Source of the DNA: Bacteroidales bacterium
Lineage (GTDB): Bacteria > Bacteroidota > Bacteroidia > Bacteroidales > UBA932
Reading direction: 5' to 3'
Assembly: GCA_016290385.1 (NCBI GenBank)
Contig: JAEETO010000004.1
Span: 1-63,447, forward strand
Length of the DNA stretch: 63,447 nucleotides
A program made the translations under genes and the position numbers. Under the pieces are notes generated by a model. That model worked only from the letters and a program-made list of their open reading frames with translations. It did not search any database and was not told where the DNA came from. This document shows, in pieces, positions 40,948-57,251 of this stretch. Every line of letters starts with the position of its first letter. Positions within the stretch are counted from its first letter, which is position 1.

Positions 40948-41805
40948 ATGCAAGCGTATCCACAAGTGGATTTGTCGGCCTGGACGCAAGTGGGCGAAGG
41001 CTATAACGGACAGGCTTTCGTCTCGGACGCACATCCAGGGAAACTGCTCAAGCTCGTGCACGGCACCCTGGCATCGGCCGAAAAGGTTGAACAGGAATTC
41101 TATGCCTCGCAGGCGGCGTTTGAGGCCGGTCTGCCCACGCCCCGGCTATATGAAATCGTACGGAACGGCCAGGAGCACGGCTATATTTCGGAAAAGATAG
41201 AAGGCAAGATATCCTTCTCCCGCCTTTGTGCCGATGCTCCGGAGCGTATCCCCGAATATGCCGCTCTGATGGCCCGATACGGCCACGAACTGCACGCACA
41301 TCCTCTATCTGTGAGTCGCTATGTTCCTTCTCTCAAAACTCTTATGCGGGAGGCCGTAGCCTTTGCTCCCTTTGTGACGCAGGCCCAGAGAAACCGTCTG
41401 GCCTCCCTGGTGGAGGAAATGGCCGATACGGCCACCGCCGTGCATGGAGACTTCCAGCCGGGGAACCTGATCCTGTCTCATGACAAGCCCTACTGGATAG
41501 ACTTGGGCTGGCTGTGCGTGGGGGACCCGGTGATAGACCTGGCCCATCTCTATAAGATGATGATGGAAGACAGTGTCATTCCCGCAGTACAGGACCTGAC
41601 CCATATGACCCGGGAGCAGATGATATCCTTCTGGCAGGCATTCGCCCAAGCTTATACGGGACAGGCCGATCTCTCGGCCCTGGAGAAGAAACTGCGCCCT
41701 TACGCCGCCCTGGATGTAGTGCGCACCTATTTCTTCCATCCCTATGACAATCCCCAGTTCCTTGCCTTCTGCAGGGGACGGATGGATGCGAATTTGGATT
41801 ACTGA
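40948..41805 (+). CDS. APH-like phosphotransferase (TIGR02172 type)
   Basis: Kinase-fold protein of 285 residues of the aminoglycoside/choline-phosphotransferase superfamily. The catalytic loop is AVHGDFQPGNLIL (HGDxxxxN) and the metal site is WIDLGWLCVGDPVIDLAHL. The opening GEGYNGQAFV and ISEKIEGKISFSRL segment match a paralogous family common in gut anaerobes (TIGR02172-like) whose small-molecule substrate is not established. Resistance is not implied. Its 3' end overlaps the convergent GH3 gene by seven bases. Confidence 0.78.
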   Translation: MQAYPQVDLSAWTQVGEGYNGQAFVSDAHPGKLLKLVHGTLASAEKVEQEFYASQAAFEAGLPTPRLYEIVRNGQEHGYISEKIEGKISFSRLCADAPERIPEYAALMARYGHELHAHPLSVSRYVPSLKTLMREAVAFAPFVTQAQRNRLASLVEEMADTATAVHGDFQPGNLILSHDKPYWIDLGWLCVGDPVIDLAHLYKMMMEDSVIPAVQDLTHMTREQMISFWQAFAQAYTGQADLSALEKKLRPYAALDVVRTYFFHPYDNPQFLAFCRGRMDANLDY

Positions 41806-44090
41806 ACCGATATCCGGACCATTTGGGTATCGCGACTGTCGGGACCGATAAGGATCTCATAGTCACCATTCTCGCAGGCCCATTGCAGTTCGTGATTGTA
41901 ATAGGACAACGTTTCTTCATCCAGCTGGAAGTCTACGGAGACGGACTGTCCGGCGGGGATGAAAACCTTCCGGAATCCCTTGAGCTCCTTCACGGGACGG
42001 GTGGAAGTGCTGTGGATAGCATGGATGTACAGCTGGACGGTTTCCATGCCGTCGCGATACCCGGTGTTGGTCACGGTGACCGAAGCGGTGACATGGCCAC
42101 CGTGCGGCATTTCGTCAGCGCTCAAGCTTACGTCAGAATAGGAGAACGTTGTGTAGCTCAAACCGTATCCGAAGGGATATAGCGGCCCGTTCAGTTCGTC
42201 GATGTAGCAGCTGGTGAACTTGCGGTAGGGGACATCGTCGGGATGAGGACGTCCTGTGTTCTTATGATTGTAGTACAGCGGCAGCTGGCCCACCGAACGG
42301 GGGAAGCTGGTCGTCAGCTTGGCCGAAGGGTTTGCGTCGCCGAAGAGCACGTCGGCAACGGCGTGGCCGCCCTCGATGCCTGGGCTCCAGACGGTCAGGA
42401 TGGCGTCGGCGAGCGGCTCGATATCCGTCAGGACCAGCGGCCGTCCCGTAACCAGTACGACGACCAAAGGTTTTCCTGTGGCTTTCACGGCCTTCAGTAA
42501 CTCTATCTGGCTGTCCGGGATCGTGATGTCGGAACGCGAAGCGCCTTCGCCGTTCATTCCGGCGATCTCGCCGACACAGGCCACTACCACATCTGCTGTG
42601 ATCGCCTTCATGACGGCCTCAGCGACCAGCAGTTTCTGGGGCCTCTCATGAACAGGCGGGATAGGAACGCCCGGGGCGAACATACGGATCAGCCCGTAGC
42701 GAACGGCATCCTCGATGGCGGCATCACCGTAGAGCCAGCTGCCTTCGGCATAGCTGGCCGGTGTGACTTCGGAGATGCCCTGCCAGAGTGTCACGCTCTC
42801 GTCGTTATGCGAAGATGTCGCCCACGTGCCAGCCATGGCAGCCGCATCCTTAGCCAGCGGTCCCACCACGGCGATTTTCGCGCCTTTCCGAAGTGGCAGC
42901 GTACCATCGTTCTTCAAGAGCACCTGGCACTCTTGGGCCACCTTGCGGGCGAAGGAGCGGTTCTCAAGCGTGAACACCTCGCTGGCGTAACGCTCCTCGG
43001 AGAAATAACGATACGGGTTGTCAAAGAGGCCGAGCCGGTACTTGGCCTCCAGGATGCGGCGGCAGGCCCGGTCGATGTCGGCCTTGGTGATGCGGCCTTC
43101 CTCCAATGATTTCTTGAGCGTCCCCACATAGCCGTCGCTGTTCATGTCCATGTCCAGTCCCGCCTGCAGTGAACGCGCGCTTACCTCCTGCAGGTCGCCG
43201 ATGCCGTGAGCCGTCTCTTCCAGGATGGCTGTAGCGTCGCTGACGATGAACCCGTCGAAACCCCAGCCCTTCCGGAGCACATCGTCCATCAGCCATTCGT
43301 TCATGCTGGCCGGGATGCCCTCGAACTCGTTGAAGGAGCTCATGTAGCTGCCCGCGCCGGCCTCGCATGCTGCCTTATAGGGGTTCATGTAGCCGTTCAT
43401 GGCCTCCTGCCGGCTCAGGAACACGGAGTTGTAATCCCGTCCGGCCTCGGCGCCGCCATACAGGGCATAGTGCTTGACGCAGGCCATCACCTCGTCGACG
43501 TCGAATACTTCGTCACGGCCTTGATAGCCATAGACCATCGCCTTTGCAATCTCTCCACCCAGGTACGGATCTTCACCGGCACCCTCGGCGATGCGGCCCC
43601 AGCGTGCATCGCGGCAGATATCCACCATGGGGCTGAATACCCAGTTGATGCCGCAGGCCGTCGCCTCACGGGCCGCCACCCTTGCCGTCTTCTCGATGAG
43701 TTCCATGTTCCAGGATGTGGCCAGGCCGAGCGGAATGGGGAAGACCGTCTGGTGCCCGTGGATGACGTCCATGCCGAAGATCAGGGGAATGCCGGCACCG
43801 CTCTGCAGGGCGATGTCCTGATACTGTCGCATCAGAGCAGGGTTGCTGCTGCCATAGATGCCGCCCAGCAAGCCTTCGCGCAGCAATTTGGCGTTCTCGT
43901 CGTTGTCCATCACCCTTTCAGCTGAGATGAAACCGGGTGCGGAATGGAGGTTCAGCTGGCCGATCTTCTGCTCCAGCGTCATGCGGGACATCAGGTCGTC
44001 GATATAGCGGTCCATGGGGGACTTGGATGTACAGGCCGAGAATGCCAGCAGCAGAATCAGGCAGAGGAAGATATGAGGGATATGTTTCAT
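41799..44090 (-). CDS. Beta-glucosidase-type lipoprotein, GH3
   Basis: Lipoprotein of 763 residues (SAC lipobox, Cys20) of glycoside hydrolase family 3, close to BglX. Domain 1 (TIM barrel) has IFGMDVIHGHQTVFPIPLGL, KHYALYGGAEAGRDYN and the nucleophile Asp in GFIVSDATAI. Domain 2 supplies the acid/base Glu in GMNGEGASRSDI. A C-terminal fibronectin-III-like domain (VTVTNTGYRDGMETVQLYIH, then PVKELKGFRKVFI) follows. Such enzymes remove terminal beta-glucose or related units from plant glycans in the periplasm. A weak -7 box (TATCTTTA, minus strand) lies at 44106-44113. Confidence 0.93.
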   Translation of the reverse strand: MKHIPHIFLCLILLLAFSACTSKSPMDRYIDDLMSRMTLEQKIGQLNLHSAPGFISAERVMDNDENAKLLREGLLGGIYGSSNPALMRQYQDIALQSGAGIPLIFGMDVIHGHQTVFPIPLGLATSWNMELIEKTARVAAREATACGINWVFSPMVDICRDARWGRIAEGAGEDPYLGGEIAKAMVYGYQGRDEVFDVDEVMACVKHYALYGGAEAGRDYNSVFLSRQEAMNGYMNPYKAACEAGAGSYMSSFNEFEGIPASMNEWLMDDVLRKGWGFDGFIVSDATAILEETAHGIGDLQEVSARSLQAGLDMDMNSDGYVGTLKKSLEEGRITKADIDRACRRILEAKYRLGLFDNPYRYFSEERYASEVFTLENRSFARKVAQECQVLLKNDGTLPLRKGAKIAVVGPLAKDAAAMAGTWATSSHNDESVTLWQGISEVTPASYAEGSWLYGDAAIEDAVRYGLIRMFAPGVPIPPVHERPQKLLVAEAVMKAITADVVVACVGEIAGMNGEGASRSDITIPDSQIELLKAVKATGKPLVVVLVTGRPLVLTDIEPLADAILTVWSPGIEGGHAVADVLFGDANPSAKLTTSFPRSVGQLPLYYNHKNTGRPHPDDVPYRKFTSCYIDELNGPLYPFGYGLSYTTFSYSDVSLSADEMPHGGHVTASVTVTNTGYRDGMETVQLYIHAIHSTSTRPVKELKGFRKVFIPAGQSVSVDFQLDEETLSYYNHELQWACENGDYEILIGPDSRDTQMVRISVQ

Positions 44091-44217: not shown

Positions 44218-46701
44218 ATGATTGACATCAAACCGATATCCCACCTCCCGGCTTTCGTCATCGCCGAAGATCTGAACCGCCGCCTCGAGACCGCGTCGGC
44301 TGTGGTGGTGACGGCTCCTCCGGGAGCCGGCAAGTCGACGGTGCTGCCACTGACGATGCTCCAGGCGCTGCCGGATGGGGAGGGAAAGATCGTGATGCTT
44401 GAGCCGCGGCGTATTGCCGCGCGGCAGATTGCAGAGCGGATGGCGTCGTTGCTGGGTGAGCAGGTGGGGGAGACGGTCGGATACCGTATTCGTTTCGAGA
44501 GCCGCACGAGCCGTCGCACGCGCATCGAGGTGGTGACGGAAGGCATCCTGACGCGGATGATGGTCGCGGATCCCGGACTTGAAGGCGTGGCCATCCTGGT
44601 CTTCGACGAATTTCACGAGCGCAGCCTTCAGACAGACCTGGCGCTGGCGCTGGCCCGCGAGGCCCAGTGTATCCTGCGGCCTGACCTTCGGTTGGTGCTG
44701 ATGTCCGCCACCATCGACGCCACGGGTATATGCGCTGCGCTGGGGGCCGAGGCTGTCAGCTGCGAAGGCAGAATGTATCCGGTAGAGGTTCGGCATGAAG
44801 GCGACGTGACCCCCGAGAATATCGTTGAGGCCACCGTGAAGATGATACGGATGGCGCACAAGGAGCGCGAAGGCGACATCCTGGCGTTCCTGCCGGGCGA
44901 GGGTGAGATACGCAGCTGTGTCGAGGCGCTCAGCAATTCGCTGGGCTTGACGCACGTCTGCCCGTTGTATGGCATGCTCTCCATGGAAGAGCAGCACCGC
45001 GCCATTGCGCCGAGCCGCCCGGGCGAACGGAAGGTTGTGCTGGCCACGCCCATCGCTGAGACCTCCCTGACCATAGAAGGCGTCCGCATCGTGGTGGATG
45101 CGGGCTACTGCCGCAAGCCGGTGTTCGACGGACGCACGGCGCTGGAACACCTGGAAACCGTGCGTATCAGCCGGGATATGGCGGCCCAGCGCAGCGGCCG
45201 TGCCGGCCGCGTGGCGCCGGGCGTCTGTTACCGCCTGTGGAGCAAGGCCACCGAGAGCCGCATGGCGGAGCTGCGTCAGCCTGAGGTCCTGGAGGCCGAC
45301 CTTGCGCCGCTGGTACTGCAGGTCGCGGCTTGGGGCGAGTCGCATCCCGAACGCCTGCAGTGGCTTACGCCGCCGCCCGCCGCGTCGCTCAAGGCAGCGC
45401 AGACCTTGCTGGTGGCTCTCGGCGCCATCGCTCCAGACGGTCGCATTACACCACACGGCCAGGCGATGGCCAAACTCCCTTGCCATCCTCGTGTAGCGCA
45501 ACTGCTGCTGACGGCGGTGGACGAAAGCCAGCAGGCGCTGGCTGCCGACATCGCGGCGCTGCTGGAGGAAAAGGATCCGCTGGCCGCCGAACAGGATCCG
45601 GACATCACGCTCCGCATCGAGGCGCTCCGCCAGGCACGCGCCAGCGGACATCCCGGCTATTGGGCACGGATGGCCCGCATCGCGGCGCAGTATCGTGCCA
45701 TGGTAGGCGTTCCGGAAGACAACGGACGTGCAGATGCCTACACAATCGGCCAACTCGTGGCCGCGGCCTATCTGGAGCGTGCGGCCCGGTCCTGGAAGGA
45801 GGGACATGGCCGCTTCTGCCTGGCCAGTGGCGACATCGTCGCCATGGAAGAGATCAGCCCGCTCAATGGCGCTGAATGGTTGGCCGTAGCCAGCGTCCAC
45901 GTCCGTGCCGGTGGCGTAGGTCGCATCTTCCTCGCGGCGCCCGTTACAAAAGACGATCTGTTGCCGATGGCGACAGTCCGTGACAATATCTATTGGGACG
46001 CCAAGGCCGGCGTCGTCGTTGCCCGCAGGGCATGGCGGCTGGGCGTCCATCTGTTGGACGAGAAGCCGCTTTCTGACTTGAAGCGCGAGGAAGTGGTGCG
46101 CGTGATATGCGAGGCAACACTCAAGGACGGCCGCTCCATGTTCGATTTCAATGACGCCGTGGAGAACATTCAGCGTCGTATAACCACTGTCGCTGCCTGG
46201 CATCCGGAGCTTGATCTTCCGGACGTGTCGACGGATGCTGTGCTGCAGCGGGCAGGGGAGTGGCTGCCGACCCATATCGGCAAGGCCTCGTCGGCTGCCC
46301 AACTCAGGAAGCTGGAGATGGACGCTGTCATCTGGGGCCTGCTCAGCTACGACCAGCAGCAAGCCGTCGAACGCATCGCACCGACGCATGTCGTAGTCCC
46401 GACAGGCAGCCGCATCCGGCTGGAGTATCGGCAGGGCGCCGAGGCCCCGGTGCTGCGTGTCCACCTGCAGGAGTGTTTCGGCCTGCTCGACACACCCCGC
46501 GTCGACGGCGGGAAGCGACCTGTGCTGATGGAGCTGCTCTCACCAGGCTACAAGCCCGTGCAACTCACCAGCGACCTGCGCAGCTTCTGGAACGAGGCCT
46601 ATTTTGAGGTCCGGAAGGAACTCCGCCGCCGCTACCCCAAACACGCCTGGCCCGATGACCCCCTGGCCGCTGATCCAGTTAGGGGTGTGAAGCGGAGATA
46701 A
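44218..46701 (+). CDS. hrpB: DEAH-type ATP-dependent helicase HrpB
   Basis: Superfamily 2 helicase of 827 residues. Walker A TAPPGAGKST at about residues 32-41, PRRIAARQIAERM (motif Ia), DEFHERS (motif II), LMSATID (III), LATPIAETSLTIEGVRIVVD (V), QRSGRAGRV (VI), then the helicase-associated region and the HrpB-specific C-terminus ending in KHAWPDDP, where family members end in the same words. The cellular RNA target of HrpB is not well defined. The opposite strand stays open for 777 codons across this gene, which is a composition effect. Confidence 0.93.
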   Translation: MIDIKPISHLPAFVIAEDLNRRLETASAVVVTAPPGAGKSTVLPLTMLQALPDGEGKIVMLEPRRIAARQIAERMASLLGEQVGETVGYRIRFESRTSRRTRIEVVTEGILTRMMVADPGLEGVAILVFDEFHERSLQTDLALALAREAQCILRPDLRLVLMSATIDATGICAALGAEAVSCEGRMYPVEVRHEGDVTPENIVEATVKMIRMAHKEREGDILAFLPGEGEIRSCVEALSNSLGLTHVCPLYGMLSMEEQHRAIAPSRPGERKVVLATPIAETSLTIEGVRIVVDAGYCRKPVFDGRTALEHLETVRISRDMAAQRSGRAGRVAPGVCYRLWSKATESRMAELRQPEVLEADLAPLVLQVAAWGESHPERLQWLTPPPAASLKAAQTLLVALGAIAPDGRITPHGQAMAKLPCHPRVAQLLLTAVDESQQALAADIAALLEEKDPLAAEQDPDITLRIEALRQARASGHPGYWARMARIAAQYRAMVGVPEDNGRADAYTIGQLVAAAYLERAARSWKEGHGRFCLASGDIVAMEEISPLNGAEWLAVASVHVRAGGVGRIFLAAPVTKDDLLPMATVRDNIYWDAKAGVVVARRAWRLGVHLLDEKPLSDLKREEVVRVICEATLKDGRSMFDFNDAVENIQRRITTVAAWHPELDLPDVSTDAVLQRAGEWLPTHIGKASSAAQLRKLEMDAVIWGLLSYDQQQAVERIAPTHVVVPTGSRIRLEYRQGAEAPVLRVHLQECFGLLDTPRVDGGKRPVLMELLSPGYKPVQLTSDLRSFWNEAYFEVRKELRRRYPKHAWPDDPLAADPVRGVKRR

Positions 46702-46810: not shown

Positions 46811-47971
46811 TTATTTGTTTGCTATTGCTGCTTTGAACATTTCGATAAGGGCCTCCGCCGACTTGTCGATATTGTACTTTTTCATTGACTCGGAGTAACG
46901 CTTTCCCTCTTCCCAGCGTTCTTTGGGATGGGAAAGCCACCAGTCTATTTTCTCGGCCAGTTCCTTTTCATTCTTCTCGTGGAAAACGCTGCGATCGGAC
47001 AACGCGAACTGCGAGGTCCCGCTGTGCTTGCCTTGGGCAATCACTGGCACGGCAGCCTGCTGCATAGCTTCCATGATGGAAAGCCCTTCCACTTCGATGG
47101 TGGCGCAGTGAACGCAGAGGTCGGCCCCGGCGGCAAGGGCACGAAGCTCGTCCCTCGTACAGAACTTGAATTTCGGTTTATATTTCACTACGCCATCTTC
47201 GTACAGTTTCATAGCCATACGTATATATTTCTTCCCCTTTGGCCCCTGCCCCGCAAATTGGAGCTGAATGCGGTCGGCAAACGCCGAATGGCGGATGGCC
47301 CTGATAAGGGTAGGTTGGTCTTTCTCAACAGAAAGCCGGCTGATATAAAGCACGTTCAGTGGACGAGCAGGGTCCAGATAGTCTTCCGGAGGTACTTCCG
47401 GGCGGATACAGGTGTCCGGAACCACACCATTGGAGATAACGTGGAGCTTGGACTTGAAGTGGTGATGCTCAAGCCTTTCGCGCACATTCTCAGTGGGACA
47501 CTGCAAATGGGAGCAATGATTGAAAACAAGATCTCTCCACGCATTGAGAAGCAGATAGTTGGCAACTTTGCTCCAGCCAAGAGCCAGGGAGCAGAAGACG
47601 TTCTCCGGATGCAGGTGGTAGGTTCCGGTAACGGGCTTCCCCAGCCGTCGGGCTATCCTGCATGCTCTCGCTTCAAGTACCATAGGCTCCTCCATATGCA
47701 CCACATCGGCCCACCGCATGGCCTCTTCGATGATCTTCTTGTCTGTGGAAGCGAAGTTATAACCTTGCGCATCAATGATGGGCTGGAAAACAGGAAAATG
47801 AAACCACTTGAGTTCGTAATCCGGTTTCGGCCCGGCTGGGTCACCATTAGGTCCCGCAACAACGCGAACTTCCTGCCCGGCATCGCGAAGAGCCTGTACA
47901 GTTCGGCGCGCCGATGCAGAAAGGCCGTTTCCCATCCCGTAATAATTATTCAGAATAAAAAGAATTTTCAT
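46811..47971 (-). CDS. Glycosyltransferase family 4
   Basis: GT-B fold glycosyltransferase of 386 residues, cytoplasmic or membrane-associated. N-terminal part: MKILFILNNYYGMGNGLSAS, ADVVHMEEP; C-terminal part: VLYISRLSVEKDQPTLIRAI, FAGQGPKGKKY, and the sugar-nucleotide site VEGLSIMEAMQQAAVPVIA with the EX7E pattern. Probably adds a hexose to a lipid or cell-surface glycan; donor and acceptor unknown. No capsule or LPS genes are next to it. The start at 47971 is preferred because the N-terminal strand KILFIL begins there; a -7 box TAATTTTG (minus strand) lies at 47999-48006. Confidence 0.9.
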   Translation of the reverse strand: MKILFILNNYYGMGNGLSASARRTVQALRDAGQEVRVVAGPNGDPAGPKPDYELKWFHFPVFQPIIDAQGYNFASTDKKIIEEAMRWADVVHMEEPMVLEARACRIARRLGKPVTGTYHLHPENVFCSLALGWSKVANYLLLNAWRDLVFNHCSHLQCPTENVRERLEHHHFKSKLHVISNGVVPDTCIRPEVPPEDYLDPARPLNVLYISRLSVEKDQPTLIRAIRHSAFADRIQLQFAGQGPKGKKYIRMAMKLYEDGVVKYKPKFKFCTRDELRALAAGADLCVHCATIEVEGLSIMEAMQQAAVPVIAQGKHSGTSQFALSDRSVFHEKNEKELAEKIDWWLSHPKERWEEGKRYSESMKKYNIDKSAEALIEMFKAAIANK

Positions 47972-47998
47972 CAGTTTTTCTCTTGCGAAAAAGATTTG

Positions 47999-48006
47999 CA
48001 AAATTA
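47999..48006 (-). promoter_or_regulatory. -7 box of the GT4 gene
   Basis: Minus strand TAATTTTG matches TAnnTTTG, 27 bases before the start codon at 47971. Confidence 0.5.
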
Positions 48007-48093: not shown

Positions 48094-48101
48094 TAATTTT
48101 G
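48094..48101 (+). promoter_or_regulatory. -7 box in front of the AraC-SDR-5AR-OYE operon
   Basis: TAATTTTG matches TAnnTTTG and lies 18 bases before the ATG at 48120, which is itself preceded by AAGGA. No second promoter was found between the genes downstream to about 52640, so this may drive the whole operon. Confidence 0.55.
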
Positions 48102-48119
48102 CGGAAATTGGTGCAAGGA

Positions 48120-49049
48120 ATGTATCACAACGAAAAGCTCAATCAGAAGCGCCTGGACGACCTCCAGATGTCACGTATCGATCTTTCGTGTACAGAATGG
48201 TTTGAGCAATTCAGGGAAGACATCCTTATCCTCCACAACCCCCGCTTCAGAGGCGATTGGGAGCCATATAAGCTCAAACAGGTCCTTCTTGTCCTTTGTA
48301 ACGGAGGTGACGTCTATGGGGCTATCAACTTACACCCCATACATCTTCAAAAAGATTCCCTGCTCATCGCACTTCCTTCCCAGATTGCGGAATCCAATAA
48401 TGTGGACGAGAGTTTTAAAGGAACGTTTTTGCTGATGTCGGAGCATTTCCTGTCCCGCATCAACATCGGTGATATTTATCTGTTTCATAAGCACGTAGAG
48501 AATAACCCCGTTTATAAACTGGATGAAAGGACTGCCACAACATTCCGTTCGCTTATAGAACTGGTGCACAATATAATACTAAGTGAAGATAACAGCTCCG
48601 GCACGGAGGAGATGTTCAGCCTGATTTCAAGGTTGTTCTACATCTTGATAAGCAGGATTATCAACCCTTCTTCCAACGCTCAGGAAACGGGGCAGCGCCA
48701 CAGTGAAGTTATGATGCAGTTTTTGCAGCTGCTTAGGCAACATTATCGGGATCACCGTGATGTTGGTTTTTATGCCGACAAGATGAGTATTTCGGCTAAA
48801 TACATGACCACTCTTGTCAAGAAAGCCAGCGGGAAATCGGCCATTCAGTGGATAGAAGATTACGTCATTCTTGACGCCAAAGCGCAATTGTCCTCGACCG
48901 TGAATACAATTCAGCAGATTGCGTTTGAACTGAATTTCCCCAGCCAGTCCCTGTTCGGGCGCTATTTCAAACGAGCTGTGGGAATGTCTCCTTCGGACTA
49001 CCGGATCTCCTTACGGCAAACCCACATGCTTGAAACGCGGTCCTATTGA
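48120..49049 (+). CDS. AraC-family regulator of the putative steroid operon
   Basis: Transcription factor of 309 residues. The first ~180 residues form a cupin-like sensor part (LSCTEWFEQFREDILILHN, then HPIHLQKDSLLIALP), the last ~100 hold two helix-turn-helix units: VGFYADKMSISAKYMTTLVK and IQQIAFELNFPSQSLFGRYF, ending GMSPSDYRISL. In Bacteroidetes this class often controls the adjoining genes in response to a small molecule. The AT content is higher than in the surrounding genes. It is followed after 8 bases by the first dehydrogenase, so it lies in the operon it probably controls. Confidence 0.87.
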   Translation: MYHNEKLNQKRLDDLQMSRIDLSCTEWFEQFREDILILHNPRFRGDWEPYKLKQVLLVLCNGGDVYGAINLHPIHLQKDSLLIALPSQIAESNNVDESFKGTFLLMSEHFLSRINIGDIYLFHKHVENNPVYKLDERTATTFRSLIELVHNIILSEDNSSGTEEMFSLISRLFYILISRIINPSSNAQETGQRHSEVMMQFLQLLRQHYRDHRDVGFYADKMSISAKYMTTLVKKASGKSAIQWIEDYVILDAKAQLSSTVNTIQQIAFELNFPSQSLFGRYFKRAVGMSPSDYRISLRQTHMLETRSY

Positions 49050-49057
49050 TCGAAAGA

Positions 49058-49825
49058 ATGACGGCACTGATAACAGGCGGAAGCTCCGGGATGGGCTTGG
49101 AATATGCACGGCAGCTGGCTGGCCGGGGCTATGATCTGGTTCTGGTCAGTAACCGGCAGGACGAACTGGACGCTGCCGCGGAAACGTTGCGCGCAGAATT
49201 TCCGGTCAATGTCCGGACACGTTACCAGGATCTGTCCGTTCCGGATGCCGCTGACATCCTGTTCGAATGGTGTACGCAGGAAGAGGACTTGCTGCCCGAT
49301 GTCGTCATCAACAACGCAGGCATGTTCTTTTTTAAGGAACTGCAGACGGAAGACCTCGACAAGGTCCAGTCCATGATCAATCTGCATGTGGTTACGATGA
49401 CCCGGATGAGCGTGCTCTTCGGCAATGCCATGAAGCGACGGGGGAGTGGCTACCTTCTCAATGTGTCGTCCATGGCCGCTCGGATTCCCGCGCCGGGCAT
49501 CACCGTCTATTCTGCCACAAAAGCCTATCTCAGGAGTTTTGGCCGCTCGCTTTCGTATGAACTGAAACCCTATGGCGTGGGCGTTACGACCGTCTGTCCG
49601 GCGGCCATCGCTACGTCGCTTTACAGTTTGGCCGAAGACAAGATGCGGCTGGGCGTACGCCTGGGCATTATCAAGACCCCGCAATGGCTGGTGAAGCGGG
49701 CCTTGCGCGCCATGTTCCGCCGCCGGCGCGTTGTCAGTCCCGGTTTCATGAATGTATGGCTTCCGGCACTGATTGCGTTGCTGCCCGGTTCAGTGGTCGC
49801 CTTTCTCTGGAAAAAGATCAAATGA
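49058..49825 (+). CDS. Short-chain dehydrogenase 1 (hydroxysteroid-dehydrogenase-like)
   Basis: Classical SDR of 255 residues. Cofactor motif TGGSSGMG at residues 6-13, NNAG near residue 88, catalytic Ser in LNVSSMA and Tyr/Lys in YSATKAYL, then VCPAAIATSL. It ends with a basic and hydrophobic C-terminus (VWLPALIALLPGSVVAFLWK), typical of membrane-associated 17-beta-HSD/HSD12-like SDRs. Its stop overlaps the next start (ATGA), giving tight coupling to the steroid 5-alpha-reductase homologue. A 3-hydroxysteroid dehydrogenase role is a reasonable inference from position, not proven by sequence. Confidence 0.88.
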   Translation: MTALITGGSSGMGLEYARQLAGRGYDLVLVSNRQDELDAAAETLRAEFPVNVRTRYQDLSVPDAADILFEWCTQEEDLLPDVVINNAGMFFFKELQTEDLDKVQSMINLHVVTMTRMSVLFGNAMKRRGSGYLLNVSSMAARIPAPGITVYSATKAYLRSFGRSLSYELKPYGVGVTTVCPAAIATSLYSLAEDKMRLGVRLGIIKTPQWLVKRALRAMFRRRRVVSPGFMNVWLPALIALLPGSVVAFLWKKIK

Positions 49826-50592
49826 TGTTCTCTCCGCACACATTCAATATCTTCCTGGCGGTGATGGCTGCTATTGCGGTGGTGGTGTTTATCGCGCTTT
49901 TCCGCGTGAATGCCGGATATGGAAAATTCTATACGCCCAAGTGGGGCCCTTCGCTCGACAACCATGTGGGCTGGATCCTGATGGAGGCGCCGGTTTTCGT
50001 GGCGATGCTGCTGCTCTGGTGGTTTTCCGACCGGCGCAACGACGTGGTCCGGCTGGTCTTCCTGGTCCTGTTTGAGAGCCACTATTTCCACCGCTCGTTC
50101 ATCTTCCCGCTGCAGCTGCGCGGACACAGCCGGATGCCGCTGTCCATTGTGCTGATGGGCATGGTGTTCAATACGCTGAACGCCCTGATGCAGGGCGGCT
50201 GGATCTTCTACGTCTCTCCGGTGGACCGGTATCCCTTGTCCTGGCTGACCAGCGTACCTTTCCTGTGCGGCACGGCGATTTTCTTGGCCGGAATGTTCAT
50301 TAACATCCAGTCCGACAGCATTATACGTCACTTACGGAAGCCCGGCGATACGGCACACTATCTGCCCCGCGGCGGTATGTTCCGCTATGTGACCAGCGCC
50401 AATTATTTCGGGGAATTCCTTGAATGGACGGGCTTCGCGATCCTCACCTGGTCGTGGGCGGGTGCGGTCTTCGCGCTCTGGACCTTCGCCAACCTGGCGC
50501 CGCGCGCTGCGCGCATCCATGATCTTTATCGCCGAGAATTCCCCGGACAGCTTGATCCGCGCACCAAGCGCATGATTCCCTTTCTCTATTGA
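49822..50592 (+). CDS. Steroid 5-alpha-reductase family protein
   Basis: Membrane protein of 256 residues with about seven hydrophobic helices, matching SRD5A-type 3-oxo-5-alpha-steroid 4-dehydrogenases along its length. The N-terminal loop GWILMEAPVFVA corresponds to the QELPSF motif of the animal enzymes: the catalytic Glu is kept, the Gln is Met. The NADPH-binding end reads INIQSDSIIRHLRKPGDT, LPRGGMFRYVTSANYFGEF, EWTGFAILTW, and closes with DPRTKRMIPFLY. The enzymes reduce the delta-4 double bond of 3-oxo steroids with NADPH. Eukaryotic homologues also reduce polyprenols, so a lipid substrate is the main alternative. Starts in an ATGA overlap. Confidence 0.87.
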   Translation: MMFSPHTFNIFLAVMAAIAVVVFIALFRVNAGYGKFYTPKWGPSLDNHVGWILMEAPVFVAMLLLWWFSDRRNDVVRLVFLVLFESHYFHRSFIFPLQLRGHSRMPLSIVLMGMVFNTLNALMQGGWIFYVSPVDRYPLSWLTSVPFLCGTAIFLAGMFINIQSDSIIRHLRKPGDTAHYLPRGGMFRYVTSANYFGEFLEWTGFAILTWSWAGAVFALWTFANLAPRAARIHDLYRREFPGQLDPRTKRMIPFLY

Positions 50593-50593
50593 T

Positions 50594-51829
50594 ATGATTG
50601 AATCTCCGATATTCACGCCTTTCAACATCGGCCCCGTAACGCTACGGAACCGGATTATCCGCTCTGCGGCGTTCGAGAACATGGCATATGGCAACAGCCC
50701 GTCGCAGGACTTGTACGACTACCATTTGGCCGTAGCCCGGGGCGGGGTGGGGATGACCACGCTGGCCTACGCGTCCGTCAACCAGAGCGGCCTGTCGTTC
50801 AAAGGACAGCTCTGGATGCGCGAGGCCATTGTCCCAGAGCTGAAACGGATTACCGATGCGGTGCATGCCGCCGGTGCGAAATGCTCCATCCAGCTGGGAC
50901 ACTGCGGCAACATGACGCACCGCTCCACTTGCGGCTGTATGCCCGTAGGTGCCTCGGGCGGCTTCAACCTGTACTCGCCGACCTTCGTCCGTGGCCTCAA
51001 GCTTCCCGAGATCGATGCGCTGGTGGAAGATTTCGGACATGCCGTAGAGCTGGCGCGGGAAGCTGGTTTCGACTGCGTAGAGATCCATGCTGGACACGGT
51101 TATCTCATTAGTCAGTTCCTGTCGCCCTATACCAACCATCGCCGCGATGCATACGGCGGTTCGCTTGAAAACCGGATGCGGTTGATGCAGCGCGTGATCC
51201 GACGCGTCATGGAAGCGGCGGGCGACGATATGGGCGTACTCGTGAAAATGAATATGTACGATGGCTTCCGCGGGGGCATGCAGGAGGATGAGTGCCTGGA
51301 GGTAGCCCGGGAACTGGAACGGCTGGGCGTACATGCCATCGTGCTATCAGCGGGCTTCGTGAGCAAAGCTCCGATGGAAGTCATGCGCGGCGCCATGCCG
51401 CTCCGCACGATGGCCCACTATGTTCCCCGTCTCCAATACATGTGGTTCAAGCCCTTGCTTTTGCTGGCCGGAAGGAAGCTCATACCGACCGTCCCTTACC
51501 GGGAAGCCTATTTTCTGGAAGATGCGCTGAAGTTCCGCGCCGCGGTCAAGCTGCCGCTGATCTACGTGGGCGGAATGGTCTCCCGGCAGAAGATGGAAGA
51601 AGTGCTCGCTCAGGGTTTCGAAGGCATCCAGATGGCCCGGGCATTGATCAGGGATACCGATTTTGTCAACAAACTTCGCAGCGGCGAAATCGACAGGAGC
51701 CCCTGCGGCCATTCCAATTACTGTATCGGGCGAATGTATACCCTGGAAATGAAATGCAACCGCTGCGTAGCCGACCTGCCGGAGCGGCTGCGCCGGGAGG
51801 TGGAAGCAGCGGAGGTGCGATGGAAATGA
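50594..51829 (+). CDS. Old Yellow Enzyme-type NADH:flavin oxidoreductase
   Basis: FMN-dependent TIM-barrel reductase of 411 residues, one base after the preceding gene. Motifs: FTPFNIGPVTLRNRIIRSAA, then GVGMTTLAYASV, IQLGHCGNM, the signature HAGHGYLISQFLSPYTNHR with YGGSLENRMRL, and the FMN-phosphate end GFEGIQMARALIRD. The C-terminal cysteine region (SPCGHSNYC and KCNRC) resembles but does not equal the iron-sulfur motif of BaiCD/FadH relatives, and the FAD/NAD domain of those enzymes is absent. Family members reduce enone double bonds, including 3-oxo-delta-4 steroids to 5-beta products. Here that is inferred from family and neighbours. The last codons overlap the next gene. Confidence 0.87.
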   Translation: MIESPIFTPFNIGPVTLRNRIIRSAAFENMAYGNSPSQDLYDYHLAVARGGVGMTTLAYASVNQSGLSFKGQLWMREAIVPELKRITDAVHAAGAKCSIQLGHCGNMTHRSTCGCMPVGASGGFNLYSPTFVRGLKLPEIDALVEDFGHAVELAREAGFDCVEIHAGHGYLISQFLSPYTNHRRDAYGGSLENRMRLMQRVIRRVMEAAGDDMGVLVKMNMYDGFRGGMQEDECLEVARELERLGVHAIVLSAGFVSKAPMEVMRGAMPLRTMAHYVPRLQYMWFKPLLLLAGRKLIPTVPYREAYFLEDALKFRAAVKLPLIYVGGMVSRQKMEEVLAQGFEGIQMARALIRDTDFVNKLRSGEIDRSPCGHSNYCIGRMYTLEMKCNRCVADLPERLRREVEAAEVRWK

Positions 51830-52632
51830 AAGGGAGGATCATCGTTACCGGCGCCACGGGCAGCATGGGATCCGCTGCGGCAGAGGCTCTGGCCAGCCAG
51901 GGGATTCCTATCCTGATGGCTTGTCGTAATCTGGAGAAGGCTGCAGCAGTGCGGGCGGATATCCTCCGTCGGGTTCCCGGCGCAGATCTGGAGGTCCAGC
52001 CGCTGGACCTGGCTTCGATGGCATCCGTGCGGGCTTTCGCAGAAGGAGTGGAAACTGGCTCGGTCGCGGCACTCTTCAACAACGCTGGCGTCATATCGAA
52101 AGGCTTCCGCCTGACGGAAGATGGATTAGAGAATACTTTCTCTGTCAATTACTTCGGCCCTTGGCTGCTGACGCAGCTCCTGCTGCCGAAACTGCCGCAG
52201 GATGCGCATATCGTGAATATGGTGTCGCTGACCTGCCGTTATGTATCGCTGAACGAAGTAAGTTTGCAGCCGACCGAAAAAGAATTCAGCCAGCTGGGTA
52301 CCTATGCCCGGGCCAAGCGCGCGTTGCTGTCGTTCTCTCTGGAGCTGGCACGGCGCTATCCGGAGTTGCGCGTCAATCTGGCCGACCCGGGCATCGTTGC
52401 TTCAGACATGATCGATCTGGGCCACTGGTACGACCCGCTGGCCGACGCGCTGTTCAAGCCACTGTGCAAGTCACCGCAGGCCGGTGTCCGTCCGGCGCTG
52501 CGCGCCCTTGTGGAAGAAAAGCACAACCGCTACTATATAGGAAAAAAGAGCAAGGACATCCCGCGCCGGTATATCGACCCTTCGCTGGACGAAAGAATCT
52601 GGGAGGAGACCCGGCGGCTCATTAATTTGTAA
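51820..52632 (+). CDS. Short-chain dehydrogenase 2
   Basis: SDR of 270 residues. Cofactor motif TGATGSMG near residues 9-16, FNNAGV near residue 87, the NTFSVNYFGPWLLTQ segment, Ser in VNMVSLTC, and catalytic Tyr-Lys in YARAKRAL. It resembles retinol/protochlorophyllide-type (extended loop) SDRs. It overlaps the end of the OYE gene by ten bases and has a good ribosome site (GGAGG at 51811-51815) before the ATG at 51820; ATG at 51826 is an alternative. Unlike SDR 1 it has no hydrophobic tail. Substrate probably the same small molecule as its neighbours. Confidence 0.87.
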   Translation: MEMKGRIIVTGATGSMGSAAAEALASQGIPILMACRNLEKAAAVRADILRRVPGADLEVQPLDLASMASVRAFAEGVETGSVAALFNNAGVISKGFRLTEDGLENTFSVNYFGPWLLTQLLLPKLPQDAHIVNMVSLTCRYVSLNEVSLQPTEKEFSQLGTYARAKRALLSFSLELARRYPELRVNLADPGIVASDMIDLGHWYDPLADALFKPLCKSPQAGVRPALRALVEEKHNRYYIGKKSKDIPRRYIDPSLDERIWEETRRLINL

Positions 52633-52649
52633 TAGAAAAACGTTTGATA

Positions 52650-53402
52650 ATGATGAAAAAAGTTTTGATTATCATAGCTGTCCTATTTGTTTGTCCGGTA
52701 ATCCAGGCACAGCAAGTATACAACATGAGCATGGACGAGTGGTCCAAACAGGGATCATCCTGGAATCCTTTCCCGAAAGGCGCCACAGACGAGCAACGTG
52801 TGTGGGACAGCGCCAACCGCGGTATGAAGGTTTTGGGCATCAATACCACCATGCCGGAATACGAACACGTGGCTGTACCCGGGCCGGGCAAGGCGGCTGC
52901 AAAGATTGTGAGCCGGAACATAACCTGGTGCTTTGCTGCCGGTAGTCTTTATACCGGACATTTTTATCGCGTTGTAAAATTCTCCGGGATAGAAATGGAT
53001 AACGGAACGCCATTTACAGGTCGCCCCAAGAGCCTGTCAGGATATTATCACTATCTGCCCGGCGTCATCAATTATGCCAAAGAGCCTTATGTCTCCAGGA
53101 AGGGAGAAACAGACAACGGCCAGATTGAAGTGGCCCTGTATGACTGGCCCGAGGTGCTGCACCTGGTCACAAATGATGGCGTCTATAACCCGGAAGCCGA
53201 TCCTCATCTGATTGGAAGGGGCGTGCTGACACTGACACAGGCGACCGACGGCTATGTCCATTTTGAGATCCCCATCGAATACAGGAGGGACGCCACACCC
53301 ACCTATGTGGGAATCTGCATCCTTTCCAGCGCATTGGGCGAGTACTATACCGGCAGCAGCCATACGGTTTTGTACGTTGACGAACTCCAGTTCAATTATT
53401 GA
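52650..53402 (+). CDS. PCMD-domain exported protein
   Basis: Exported protein of 250 residues with a signal peptide ending in IQAQQ. After a linker (MSMDEWSKQGSSWNPFPKG) comes a beta-sandwich with TGHFYRVVKFSGI, NGTPFTGRPKSLSGYYHYLP, TYVGICILSSALGEYYTGSS and LYVDELQFNY, the marks of the PCMD (putative carbohydrate metabolism) domain found in Bacteroidetes surface proteins. It lies 17 bases behind SDR 2 and could be co-transcribed, but a link to steroid metabolism is not shown. ATG at 52653 is an equal alternative. Confidence 0.8.
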   Translation: MMKKVLIIIAVLFVCPVIQAQQVYNMSMDEWSKQGSSWNPFPKGATDEQRVWDSANRGMKVLGINTTMPEYEHVAVPGPGKAAAKIVSRNITWCFAAGSLYTGHFYRVVKFSGIEMDNGTPFTGRPKSLSGYYHYLPGVINYAKEPYVSRKGETDNGQIEVALYDWPEVLHLVTNDGVYNPEADPHLIGRGVLTLTQATDGYVHFEIPIEYRRDATPTYVGICILSSALGEYYTGSSHTVLYVDELQFNY

Positions 53403-53443: not shown

Positions 53444-54229
53444 CTACTTCACATTGTAAGTGTGAATGGAAAGACCTTGTGCTGAGGGCAGGTAGTTGAT
53501 GCCCCACCAGCAGATCTGCAGGCAGACGAAACTCACCAGCAGGATGACGCAGGCACTCTGCCACTCATTGGGCTTGGCCTTCCGCAGGTGCAGGTACACC
53601 AGATAGCACAGCCAGGTGGCGGCGGCCCAGGTTTCCTTGGGATCCCAGGCCCAGTAGGTTCCCCAGGCTTCCTTGGCCCACAGAGCGCCGAAGAGCATCC
53701 CGAAAGTCAGGAACGCGAGGCCGACATACACAAGGTTGTCTGTGAGATTGATCTCTTTTTCCGTGGTCTTGTCTTTCCGTATCAGCATATAGACCGCCAT
53801 GATGGTCGCCGCGCCCAGCAGGGCATAGGAGAACATGTAGACAATCACGTGCGGGGCGAACCAGGGGCTCTGCAGGGCAGGCATCAGGCTCTTGGAGTGG
53901 ATGCCCGGCTTGAAAAGATTGACACAAATGAAAACGAAAGACAGTAGCGTGCTGAAACTAAGGATCCATTTGTAGCGCCAGCGGCTGTAAACAATGATGC
54001 CGGCTACCGGCAGGAAGAAGGAGTACCAGAGCCGTGTTTCGCCCATCGTCCGCAGGGGCGGACGCTCCAGCGAAATCCACATTCCCAGAATAAATGCGAA
54101 GAAGACGGTGATGCCGGCCAGCGTGCAGGCAAATGCCAGCGGCTTGCGCTCTTTCCACGCGAAGAAGGCGCCTGCAACCCAGAGAAGCACCGCTCCCAGT
54201 GCGAACCAGATAAATGAATCCCAACTCAT
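53444..54229 (-). CDS. ccsA: Cytochrome c maturation protein CcsA/ResC
   Basis: Inner-membrane heme handling protein of system II cytochrome c maturation, 261 residues with about eight helices. The tryptophan-rich WWD motif is visible as WGTYWAWDPKETWA, and conserved histidines lie in APHVIVYMFSYALLG and near the end in SIHTYN. It starts in an ATGA overlap with the stop of the ResB-like gene. Fourth gene of the nrfHA-resB-ccsA operon; it attaches heme to the many CxxCH sites of NrfH and NrfA together with ResB. Confidence 0.93.
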   Translation of the reverse strand: MSWDSFIWFALGAVLLWVAGAFFAWKERKPLAFACTLAGITVFFAFILGMWISLERPPLRTMGETRLWYSFFLPVAGIIVYSRWRYKWILSFSTLLSFVFICVNLFKPGIHSKSLMPALQSPWFAPHVIVYMFSYALLGAATIMAVYMLIRKDKTTEKEINLTDNLVYVGLAFLTFGMLFGALWAKEAWGTYWAWDPKETWAAATWLCYLVYLHLRKAKPNEWQSACVILLVSFVCLQICWWGINYLPSAQGLSIHTYNVK

Positions 54230-55113
54230 GATCGTACAGGTTTAGGAGCCATGAACAGCATCAGGCACAGCGCGCCGGCAATCATCATGAAGATGCCCAG
54301 GTACACCCAGAAAATCCAGGGATCCCGCACCAGCTGGAATACGCTGTAGGGACTTTCAGTGCCGTATCTCACATCGTAGCCATACTGGTAGATCTTCCAG
54401 CCGTTCACTTTCAGGGGCTTGTTCACTTCCACCGTACCGCGGACCTTCTTGCCGTCCTCCGTATAGACGGTGATATCCGACGCGAAACGCTTGGGCGTGC
54501 CGTCGTCATATTCCTCCAGGGTGAACTTGTGCAGCTCGATGGCCAGGCCCGGCTCGTGTACCATTCCGTCATTATCTACCGCCCGCCACTCAGGCTCTCC
54601 CGTGAAGGCAGTGAGCTGCAGGCTCTGGATATCGGCATTGCCCAGCGTAGCGGAGACAATAGCTACGACGACGCCCAGATGATTCAGGATAAAGGGGATT
54701 TCGCGCACTTTCCAGCGCAGCAGATGGTTCAGCGCGGCCAGGGCTGATATCACCATCATCCAGGTCCAGATGAGCACGAATGGCCAGAAGCGGAGCATCT
54801 GGCTGAGCCACGGGATTCCACCCATGCGAACCTGTGGCAGCAGCCCCATCAGGATGGTGAGCGCCGCTGCATAAATGAGGCATGGAACCGCTGCTCCCGC
54901 ATGCATCATCCATTCGATGGCATACACTTTCCTGCGCAAAGCATACAGGATGCCGACTGCCGCCAGCAGCAGGACAAGCAGAATCAGATTGACCGGCCAC
55001 GCCATCAGGCTCCAGTTGATGGGGCCCAGTGAAATCTGAAGCAGCAGCCCCACAACAAGAAGGCCTCCTCCGATGAGGAAGCCCTCCTTCATGCTCCAGG
55101 GTTTAGCCCACAT
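54226..55113 (-). CDS. resB: Cytochrome c maturation protein ResB-like
   Basis: Membrane protein of 295 residues with three or four N-terminal helices, a periplasmic part and one C-terminal helix. The periplasmic part contains GEPEWRAVDNDGMVHEPGLA and VNKPLKVNGWKIYQYGYDV, typical of ResB/CcsB, which deliver reduced apocytochrome for heme attachment. It is shorter than plant or Bacillus ResB but of the size usual in Bacteroidetes nrf operons. Two bases separate it from nrfA; it overlaps ccsA. Confidence 0.88.
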   Translation of the reverse strand: MWAKPWSMKEGFLIGGGLLVVGLLLQISLGPINWSLMAWPVNLILLVLLLAAVGILYALRRKVYAIEWMMHAGAAVPCLIYAAALTILMGLLPQVRMGGIPWLSQMLRFWPFVLIWTWMMVISALAALNHLLRWKVREIPFILNHLGVVVAIVSATLGNADIQSLQLTAFTGEPEWRAVDNDGMVHEPGLAIELHKFTLEEYDDGTPKRFASDITVYTEDGKKVRGTVEVNKPLKVNGWKIYQYGYDVRYGTESPYSVFQLVRDPWIFWVYLGIFMMIAGALCLMLFMAPKPVRS

Positions 55114-55115
55114 AC

Positions 55116-56621
55116 TTAGTATTCAAGCAATTTGCCGTTTTCCTTGTCGATGGACAGCCACTGGGGGACAATCTCTTTCATGAACTTGTCCTTCTTTTCG
55201 GTCATGTCCTTCATGTCCAGGCCGATGTATGCCTGCGCTTTGGCCTTGGTGGAGATGTCGGGCATCGGCACTTCGCCGGTGAAGCCGTGCTTGGCCAGGA
55301 CCTTGGCAATCTTCAGGCGGGCTTGGCCGGCGTAGTCGATTCCGTCGCCCATCAGGCGGAGCACCTCCTGCGGTGCATGGAAGGAAGCACCATGCGAAGC
55401 CACGGCATAGTCCCAGCGCCACTGGCTCTTGCGGATGTCCTGCAGGGCGTCCTTCATCTCAGCATCCGTCGCACCCTTGTCCCAGGCGAACTTGGCCTCA
55501 ATGTGGGACTTGGCGAGCAGGTCTTCCAGGCGGTCGCGGACCTCCAGGCACTTCTCCTGACGCTCTTCGACGTTCTTGCGGAGGGTCTCCTCGCTTTCGC
55601 GGTGGCACACCAGGCAGGTGCGGTCCATCTTGGCCAGCGGGCTTTGGATGTGGTGGTCGGAGTACTTCACGCCGCCATCGGCCACGTAAGGCATGTGGCA
55701 GTCGGCGCAGGTGACGCCGCGCTGGCCGTGGATGCCCTGCAGCGAGGTTTCATAGCCGGGATGCTGGGCCTTGAGAATAGGAGCCTTGGACAGTTTGTGG
55801 ATGTAATCGGCATAGCCCATCTCGTCATAGTATTTCTCGGCATCTTCCAACGTGAGACCGTATTTCCAAGGGAAGGTGAGGTACTGGTCTTTCTCAGGCG
55901 TCTCGGGATAGTCATGGAAATAGTATTCGACATGGCACTGAGCGCACACCAGCGAGCGCATCTCGTTGTGCGTGGCCTTGTCCACGTCCTTGCCCATGCT
56001 GGCAAAGGCTTCGCGCAGGGCGGGACGGGAGATATGCAGGTCCATGGTCTCGCTGTCGTGGCAGTCGCTGCAGCCGATGGGGTTCACCACGTCGGCGCCC
56101 CACTTGGCCCAGTTGGCCTTGTAGAACTCAGCCGGGCCGACTTCCTCCATCAGGCGCGGCACGTCCGGGCCCTTGCAGGTCCAGCAGGTGCCGGGTTGGT
56201 TGGAACCGTCGTACAGCGTGGTAGGAGAGCCGGTGCGAAGGATCTCACGATGGTCCTCCAGGGCGTGGAAGTGCCCGCGGGGTGAATTATAGTCCCAGGA
56301 GAAAGCGTAGCCGGCCCACAGCACGACCATGTTGGGACGCTCTGCCAGAACGTCCTGGATGTCCGAAGACATATATTTGGAGCGGAAATCCGTCTCCTCA
56401 GTGGCCTTCCAGGTCTCATACTCCCGCGGGAAGTCGCTCTTGAACTTCTGGTTTTGGGCCACGATGCCCTTCATCGGATTCTTGCGGTTGTTGAAGATGC
56501 TTGCTACCTCAGCCCGGCGTTCCATCAGCGAGGAGACCAGTAGGCCCAGGAGGAAGACGATGACCATGCAGCCGCCGAAAATCAGCCAGGCGTGAATGGG
56601 TTTCAGTTTCTTTTCGCTCAT
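55116..56621 (-). CDS. nrfA: Ammonia-forming nitrite reductase NrfA
   Basis: Pentaheme cytochrome c nitrite reductase of 501 residues with an N-terminal signal anchor (AWLIFGGCMVIVFLLGLLVS). The five heme sites are the lysine-ligated CWTCK, then CSDCH, CAQCH, CADCH and CLVCH. The active-site region CAQCHVEYYF and KAQHPGYETSLQGIHGQRG segment provide the Tyr, His and Arg expected at the distal side. It reduces nitrite to ammonium with six electrons delivered by NrfH. Second gene of the operon; 12 bases after nrfH. Confidence 0.96.
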   Translation of the reverse strand: MSEKKLKPIHAWLIFGGCMVIVFLLGLLVSSLMERRAEVASIFNNRKNPMKGIVAQNQKFKSDFPREYETWKATEETDFRSKYMSSDIQDVLAERPNMVVLWAGYAFSWDYNSPRGHFHALEDHREILRTGSPTTLYDGSNQPGTCWTCKGPDVPRLMEEVGPAEFYKANWAKWGADVVNPIGCSDCHDSETMDLHISRPALREAFASMGKDVDKATHNEMRSLVCAQCHVEYYFHDYPETPEKDQYLTFPWKYGLTLEDAEKYYDEMGYADYIHKLSKAPILKAQHPGYETSLQGIHGQRGVTCADCHMPYVADGGVKYSDHHIQSPLAKMDRTCLVCHRESEETLRKNVEERQEKCLEVRDRLEDLLAKSHIEAKFAWDKGATDAEMKDALQDIRKSQWRWDYAVASHGASFHAPQEVLRLMGDGIDYAGQARLKIAKVLAKHGFTGEVPMPDISTKAKAQAYIGLDMKDMTEKKDKFMKEIVPQWLSIDKENGKLLEY

Positions 56622-56633
56622 ATCGTTTGTTTT

Positions 56634-57251
56634 TTATTTTCCGTGAAGATGTCCGTGGGGAGAATGGTGGCCGATGGCTTTCTGCAGCCATTCGGGTACC
56701 GGAGAATCCGGGAAGGGAACCTTGGCATCCGGTGTGGCCGAGAGGCTGTTCTTCCCGCCATGCGGGACGTCCCGGTGGCAGTCCCAGCAAGCCTTGCCAT
56801 CGCCCTCCTGCGTCATCTTGAAATCCATCTTGCCCAGCTTGACCATTTCTGTGGTGAGTTCCGTATGGCAACGGATGCAGTTATTCATGATGACCTGTGC
56901 GCTGGGGTCCTTGGCGGCGGGTACCTGCGGTTCGCTGAATGAGAGGAAGGCCGCCGTGTGCTTCATGCCGTCCAGACCCTTGAAGGCATACTTGCGCGCC
57001 ATGTTCTCGTGCGGGACATGACAATCGTTGCAAGTGGCTACGGCACCTTCACCCCGGCCATGTGAGGAGTGGTTCCAGGTGGCGTAGTACGGCTGCATGA
57101 TATGGCAGTTCACGCAGGCCGATGGGTCATCTCCCAAGTACGTTGTGAAACGCAGCATATACAGGAAGAGACATCCGCCGCCCACAAAAGCGCCAGCCAG
57201 GCATATCAGGATAACTTTTTGCCAAAGTTTCAACTTGATGGGGGACGCCAT
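56634..57251 (-). CDS. nrfH: Nitrite reductase small subunit NrfH
   Basis: Membrane-bound tetraheme quinol dehydrogenase of 205 residues that passes electrons from menaquinol to NrfA. One N-terminal transmembrane helix (VILICLAGAFVGGGCLFLYM) is followed by CVNCH, CNDCH, CIRCH and CWDCH. The end is His-rich (GHHSPHGHLHGK), an extra that might bind metal. A near-perfect Bacteroidetes promoter lies directly upstream. First gene of the nrf operon. Confidence 0.94.
   Translation of the reverse strand: MASPIKLKLWQKVILICLAGAFVGGGCLFLYMLRFTTYLGDDPSACVNCHIMQPYYATWNHSSHGRGEGAVATCNDCHVPHENMARKYAFKGLDGMKHTAAFLSFSEPQVPAAKDPSAQVIMNNCIRCHTELTTEMVKLGKMDFKMTQEGDGKACWDCHRDVPHGGKNSLSATPDAKVPFPDSPVPEWLQKAIGHHSPHGHLHGK

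Follow-up and report, generated by a model that had tools for sequence, protein, structure and literature searches.

A probable steroid A-ring redox operon of known Bacteroidales type, with a linked PCMD protein, in a ruminant-stomach lineage

Introduction

On which molecules does a compact redox operon of a ruminant-stomach Bacteroidales lineage act, and does its exported last product belong to the same pathway? These questions are raised by a stretch of 63,447 nucleotides from a Bacteroidales bacterium (assembly GCA_016290385.1, contig JAEETO010000004.1), hereafter called the window; the assembly comprises 2.36 Mb in 154 contigs and is 83.5% complete. On one strand, the gene of an AraC-type regulator is followed, tightly packed, by those of a short-chain dehydrogenase/reductase (SDR1), a membrane steroid 5-alpha-reductase (5AR), an old yellow enzyme (OYE) type flavin reductase, a second short-chain dehydrogenase/reductase (SDR2), and a PCMD protein (Table 1). 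An earlier interpretation made from the letters alone (the sequence-only reading) had proposed a steroid or bile-acid redox operon. Its enzyme types were borne out; whereas bile acids as the substrate of this organism lost ground, for reasons given below. With moderate confidence, we favour a redox operon for the steroid A ring, of the established type comprising 5AR, 5-beta-reductase (5BR) and hydroxysteroid dehydrogenase (HSDH), with the PCMD protein as a partner and a plant steroid as the likelier substrate. The observations behind this view are the gene content and spacing, the catalytic residues, the conserved synteny, and the linkage and co-occurrence of PCMD.

Enzymes of the operon

Pfam agrees with the proposed type of each of the four enzymes, and their catalytic residues are intact. 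The best PDB matches of the 5AR were 7c83 (E 2.7e-51) and human SRD5A2 (7bw1, E 6.9e-40), and by sequence the enzyme is of the SRD5A2/PbSRD5A type. Its residues E55 and Y88 are conserved to at least 97% across 121 aligned rows and align with the active-site Glu and Tyr of human SRD5A2, which we take to be E57 and Y91. The third match was 22of, a probable very-long-chain enoyl-CoA reductase (E 1.8e-6), which the two steroid 5-alpha-reductases beat by 33 and 45 orders of magnitude. A polyprenol or enoyl reductase is accordingly not favoured for the 5AR. SDR1 has the YxxxK residues (Y151, K155) and a hydrophobic C-terminal tail, as judged by eye, and is a candidate 3-hydroxysteroid dehydrogenase. 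The YxxxK residues of SDR2 are Y162 and K166.

The OYE protein (411 aa) ends after the Fe-S region, and only its FMN domain is recognized by Pfam. The BaiCD model (NCBIfam NF041087) matched it with an E-value of 6.6e-56 and 189.7 bits, whereas the equivalog cut-off is 825 bits; a BaiCD equivalog is therefore ruled out by score. The canonical cluster motif of Fe-S old yellow enzymes has four cysteines, CX2CX3CX11C. The window enzyme lacks it and shows C-x-H-x-N-x-C-x10-C instead in all 35 aligned rows (C371-x-H373-x-N375-Y-C377-x10-C388). The five residues C371, H373, N375, C377 and C388 are invariant in these rows and at least 97% conserved in 114 rows. The predicted fold aligns through the motif region, where model confidence is low (block means 53 and 56). 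The motif is a candidate site for Fe-S or another metal, with three Cys and one His as possible ligands, although the enzyme has no recognized FAD domain that could feed a cluster. The enzyme is a candidate 5-beta-reductase of the Fe-S type.

For the substrates, the direction of each reaction and the role of PCMD, we infer the following scheme. Hydrophobic 3-oxo-delta-4 steroids would enter the cell, and the membrane 5AR with NADPH would yield the 5-alpha products. The OYE enzyme would reduce, or re-form, the delta-4 bond on the 5-beta side, while the exported PCMD protein might bind the steroid or hand it over in the periplasm.

Conservation of the gene cluster

Named genomes were scanned with the 5AR and the best 80 of 397 loci were kept; the close loci were drawn from these, 62 being examined and 18 dropped for want of flanking sequence. 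The genes in a same-strand chain were counted. The chains of the close loci include the 5AR in 62, OYE in 61, SDR1 in 54, SDR2 in 48, PCMD in 35 and AraC in 2. The pairing of 5AR with OYE in 61 of 62 is more than chance, and the comparison of gene order across the Bacteroidales proposed earlier revealed a conserved cluster. From the same family, 20 loci were fetched out of 82 genomes other than its own and one was dropped; the remaining 19 have OYE (16), SDR2 (7), SDR1 (6) and PCMD (2) in the chain. Another 20 were fetched from the stronger matches among 60 genomes of other families of the order, again with one dropped, and here the chain includes OYE in 17 of 19, SDR2 in 13, SDR1 in 10 and PCMD in none, two loci having a divergent PCMD directly upstream. 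Within the family, 83 of 199 genomes have the 5AR, a patchy distribution.

The 5AR-OYE pair therefore forms the core, SDR2 is a common companion of it across these loci, and AraC is a local feature of the closest relatives. The sequence-only reading had expected SDR2 and PCMD to extend the known set, and the close loci agree on both counts, SDR2 being a conserved member and PCMD a real operon partner. Control by a ligand-sensing AraC protein fared worse as a feature of the system: besides its two chains among the 62 loci, the gene is inverted in a third (L032). A conserved ligand sensor was accordingly rejected. Of the AraC protein, only the C-terminal helix-turn-helix is recognized by Pfam.

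The PCMD protein and its genomic company

The window PCMD protein scored 117 bits against PF13201, whose gathering cut-off is 28, and is the only PF13201 match in its genome, which is 83.5% complete. It has a signal peptide ending in ..QAQQ with no lipobox Cys, as judged by eye. The PCMD proteins of relatives are longer (about 305-324 aa), and two of them that were tested matched PF13201 with E-values of 4.9e-18 and 3.2e-21. The long form mostly lies directly after SDR1; it was also found at the operon end, before SDR1, before the 5AR, or divergently upstream. The window protein is 21-30% identical to the long forms aligned with it, and may be a replacement of them. An AlphaFold model of it (32 rows) reached a mean pLDDT of 48 and was unusable for a fold search, so that it speaks neither for steroid nor for glycan binding.

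Co-occurrence was counted in 247 genomes, of which 38 have the long PCMD subfamily (E<1e-80), 32 a strong 5AR (E<1e-70) and 20 a strong sulfotransferase (E<1e-140). These thresholds were picked after the lists had been seen, and exclude 2 of 40, 31 of 63 and 13 of 33 genomes with a match, respectively. The window genome itself was scored as having the 5AR without PCMD, as its short protein is not matched by the long-form model. PCMD was found in 34 of 42 genomes with a 5AR or sulfotransferase versus 4 of 205 that have neither; the Fisher p is about 1e-29, but the genomes are related and such p-values overstate the evidence. Taken singly, the 5AR is accompanied by PCMD in 25 of 32 genomes and the sulfotransferase in 19 of 20. 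Gut habitat confounds this result. For example, the bile-salt hydrolase family CBAH (E<=1e-20), used as a gut-type control, likewise occurs in 26 of the 42 genomes versus 15 of the 205, and in 26 of 38 PCMD-positive versus 15 of 209 PCMD-negative genomes. The link holds, however, within both strata: among the genomes with CBAH, 24 of 26 that have PCMD also have a 5AR or sulfotransferase, versus 2 of 15 that lack PCMD; among those without CBAH, the figures are 10 of 12 versus 6 of 194.

Neighbouring genes elsewhere in the order were surveyed at 36 loci from the matches listed, with frames of about 300-410 aa; frames of 582 and 801 aa were excluded. These loci include 37 PCMDs. A sulfotransferase gene immediately precedes 9 of them, a relative of SDR1 adjoins 3 (from a single family, f139) and a GT4 gene adjoins 1, while the other 24 have none of the tested genes as neighbours. 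The cluster of the nine has the order APS kinase-CysD-CysN-sulfotransferase. From the side of the sulfotransferase, a PCMD was found within the flank (about 1.5 kb or less) in 9 of 20 close and 0 of 10 distant relatives. In B. thetaiotaomicron, BT_0412-BT_0416 makes cholesterol sulfate (PMC9417993; this and the other papers are cited from excerpts).

A tree was built from 73 PCMDs. Most of the proteins from 5AR operons fall into a main clade; L163/L164, L142/L143 and the window group lie elsewhere, the last apart on a very long branch on which its place rests. Counted against the other labelled rows, the placement of the 5AR-operon proteins needs two label changes, of which well-supported branches force only one, and a single origin of the PCMD-5AR link is possible. 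A supported branch places all nine sulfotransferase-linked rows on the same side, where they are mixed with nine unlinked ones.

Two further loci were recorded. At L150 (5097-16998), a 5AR-OYE-SDR1-SDR2 operon and a sulfotransferase/CysN cluster lie about 6.3 kb apart on one contig. At G010:C1:1054647-1055033, a fragment of the PCMD subfamily is interrupted by a stop, and the genome concerned has no 5AR match; the two were possibly lost together.

The strongest rival concerns this protein. PCMD might be a carbohydrate or surface-glycan protein that merely lies nearby and co-occurs through a shared gut habitat, which we rate at somewhat under an even chance. The PF13201 name refers to carbohydrate metabolism, the nearest relatives with a structure bear the title of putative glycoside hydrolase (4jrl), and many PCMDs lie within open frames of 500-1000 aa. 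The CBAH control and the 24 PCMDs with no tested steroid gene beside them point the same way. Against this, the link to the 5AR or sulfotransferase persists in both CBAH strata, and PCMD adjoins two different steroid-type clusters in separate parts of the tree. The genomic company of this secreted protein (5AR operons and sulfotransferase clusters) points to steroids, and despite its carbohydrate label the protein may handle them. A literature search swamped by a common genus name met no tie between PCMD and steroids, which is not a claim of absence from print.

Habitat and probable substrate

The titles of the 80 loci point to ruminant stomachs. Those of the RGIG series that name a gut site (n=39) give omasum (17), rumen (14), reticulum (4), abomasum (3) and duodenum (1), so that stomach chambers make up 38 of 39. 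The other 41 loci include 17 rumen-type names (1 Rumen_Coassembly and 16 RUG, a label which we take to be of rumen type) and 4 horse-associated ones; no gut site is given in the remainder. Bile enters only after the stomach chambers. Moreover, none of 25 same-genus genomes has a strong CBAH match, the best reaching 52 bits; weak matches above the Pfam cut-off occur in 14 of them, the window genome included. Because of the stomach-chamber relatives and the lack of a strong CBAH match, diet-derived steroids are a better guess than bile acids, and a plant-derived steroid, such as a sapogenin or a phytosterol-derived ketone, is more likely. Rumen microbes are reported to free sapogenins from plant saponins by hydrolysis and to convert them further by oxidation, reduction and epimerisation, with smilagenone, smilagenin, epismilagenin and tigogenin as products (PMC10385484, PMC5535167). 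These products would fit the expected reduction of the delta-4 bond on either face together with reduction of the 3-ketone. Our literature search met no genes assigned to rumen sapogenin reduction, which is not to say that none are in print; the operon would provide candidates for them. The process matters in grazing animals, in which conjugated epismilagenin, one of its products, reportedly blocks bile flow and leads to photosensitisation (PMC5535167).

A bile-acid iso-allo operon, with secondary bile acids as the natural substrate, seems rather unlikely in this lineage. Its core gene set is that of the P. merdae, O. laneus and B. dorei cluster making isoallolithocholic acid (PMC10382948), strong CBAH matches (E<=1e-20) occur commonly in Bacteroidales that have the 5AR (19 of 32 genomes with a strong one), and one close locus is from the duodenum and four are from horse faeces or horse-named; whereas the site-naming titles lie almost wholly upstream of bile entry and CBAH stays at or below 52 bits in the 25 same-genus genomes. 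Very improbable is an endogenous lipid (polyprenol, enoyl lipid or quinone) with no steroids involved: the Steroid_dh family is broad, SDRs and OYEs are promiscuous, and 22of is the third PDB match, but the steroid 5-alpha-reductases match far better, the 5AR-OYE-SDR combination has been reported for steroids, and the patchy 5AR is unlike core metabolism.

Several points weigh against the favoured operon with its plant steroid. A sapogenin route would need another enzyme for the delta-5 to delta-4 step. The habitat bias may be merely that of the genus, a divergent hydrolase is possible given the weak CBAH matches in 14 of 25 genomes, and completeness is limited (83.5% for the window genome, 51-98% for those of the genus). 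Steroid hormones may be substrates too; in O. splanchnicus, B. uniformis and P. distasonis, the 5AR genes were linked to the dihydrotestosterone/testosterone ratio (PMC12589954). The chain lacks PCMD at 27 of the 62 close loci (at three of them, L038, L099 and L106, it is nearby yet outside the chain), and the 24 of 37 PCMDs elsewhere without a tested steroid neighbour count here as well. The likeness to the P. merdae, Odoribacter and B. dorei clusters was drawn from described gene content, not from sequence. Dairy cow intestinal genomes were without the 3alpha- and 3beta-HSDH orthology groups searched for (PMC9750977); the 15 groups of that study, as excerpted, include no 5AR and the intestine was sampled, so it is neutral for the window operon.

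A wider proposal is put forward only tentatively: that the PCMD subfamily is a general periplasmic steroid handler of the Bacteroidales, serving both 5AR and BT_0416-type clusters, and that the operon performs saturation and 3-epimerisation of sapogenins in ruminants. If true, it would give a function to a family of signal-peptide proteins and a periplasmic step to steroid uptake or release by gut Bacteroidales.

Features of the locus

Every gap and overlap on the one strand that the sequence-only reading had listed was borne out on the DNA (Table 1).

Table 1. Features of the operon in the window
Feature	Position	Strand	Evidence and spacing
-7 promoter box TAATTTTG	48094..48101	+	18 bases upstream of AraC ATG; -33 element not recognized
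AraC-type regulator	48120..49049	+	ATG start; HTH_18 3e-19
SDR1	49058..49825	+	adh_short 2.4e-36; 8-base gap after AraC
5AR, membrane steroid 5-alpha-reductase	49822..50592	+	Steroid_dh 5.1e-43; ATGA overlap with SDR1
OYE-type flavin reductase	50594..51829	+	Oxidored_FMN 2.3e-56; 1-base gap after 5AR
OYE Cys/His motif (residues 371-388)	51704..51757	+	Alignment conservation
SDR2	51820..52632	+	adh_short 5.2e-24; 10-base overlap with OYE
PCMD protein	52650..53402	+	PF13201 1.5e-33; 17-base gap after SDR2

A second in-frame ATG of SDR2 at 51826 would make an ATGA overlap with OYE, and an alternative listed TTG start of AraC at 48099 would overlap the -7 box. The promoter box noted earlier, TAATTTTG, presumably of the Bacteroidota -7 type, was found; no clear -33 TTG was seen by eye. 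TANNTTTG sites number 27 in the window versus 13.5 expected. Rfam (gathering thresholds) and tRNA scans of the window found nothing.

On the minus strand at 53444-57251, convergent with the operon end, lie genes for CcsB-like and ResB-like proteins, a cytochrome c552 (NrfA type, E 1.6e-176) and a NapC/NirT-type cytochrome, resembling a nitrite-ammonification cluster. On the other side, a GT4 glycosyltransferase gene (46811-48001, minus) is divergent from the operon and is near it in a few close loci too; a relative of it adjoins a PCMD at another locus (L187). Further upstream are an HrpB-type ATP-dependent helicase (44218-46701, plus) and, 4 kb away, a GH3 enzyme (41799-44090, minus), for which a link to saponin deglycosylation is possible and unspecific.

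Comparison with known systems

The OYE shares a matching family model, and probably the reaction type, with BaiCD/BaiH of bile-acid dehydroxylating Firmicutes. The BaiCD model has 642 positions; whereas the window enzyme has 411 aa and no recognized FAD/NAD(P) domain, with its Cys/His motif in place of CX2CX3CX11C. An OYE-family 5beta-reductase of Clostridium is treated in PMC12238238.

The sulfotransferase loci resemble the cholesterol sulfonation cluster BT_0411-BT_0416 in gene content and order, not by sequence, and in 9 of 20 clusters with matching content the sulfotransferase is immediately followed by a long-subfamily PCMD. The term PCMD is absent from the main text of PMC9417993, and the window genome has no BT_0416-type sulfotransferase at E<=1e-60. 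The solved PF13201 proteins 4jrl, 4het, 3hbz and 3s30, titled glycoside hydrolases, share a recognizable PCMD domain with the window protein; however, they have an extra N-terminal part, whereas the window protein has little beyond the domain.

The closest known system is the Bacteroidota 5AR/5BR/3beta-HSDH cluster, which Li et al. 2021 reportedly described for bile acids. Common to both are a membrane 5AR and, in one cluster with it, a reductase of the OYE type and an SDR. Strains of P. merdae, O. laneus and B. dorei convert 3-oxo-delta-4 lithocholic acid (LCA) to isoalloLCA, and disruption of the P. merdae 5AR blocked the alloLCA derivatives (PMC10382948). In the account of Sato et al. 2021 given there, the genes for an NADH:flavin oxidoreductase and a predicted 3beta-HSDH lie in one cluster with the 5AR, a core kind known in Parabacteroides, Odoribacter and Bacteroides (PMC10382948). 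The 5AR-OYE-SDR core is therefore not new, and the window operon matches the known cluster in composition. None of these three genera appears in the titles of the best 80 of 397 loci. Both window SDRs carry YxxxK, a motif that says nothing of 3beta specificity. The window differs by the extra SDR2 and the signal-peptide PCMD, in the order SDR1-5AR-OYE-SDR2-PCMD, and its closest loci come from ruminant stomachs.

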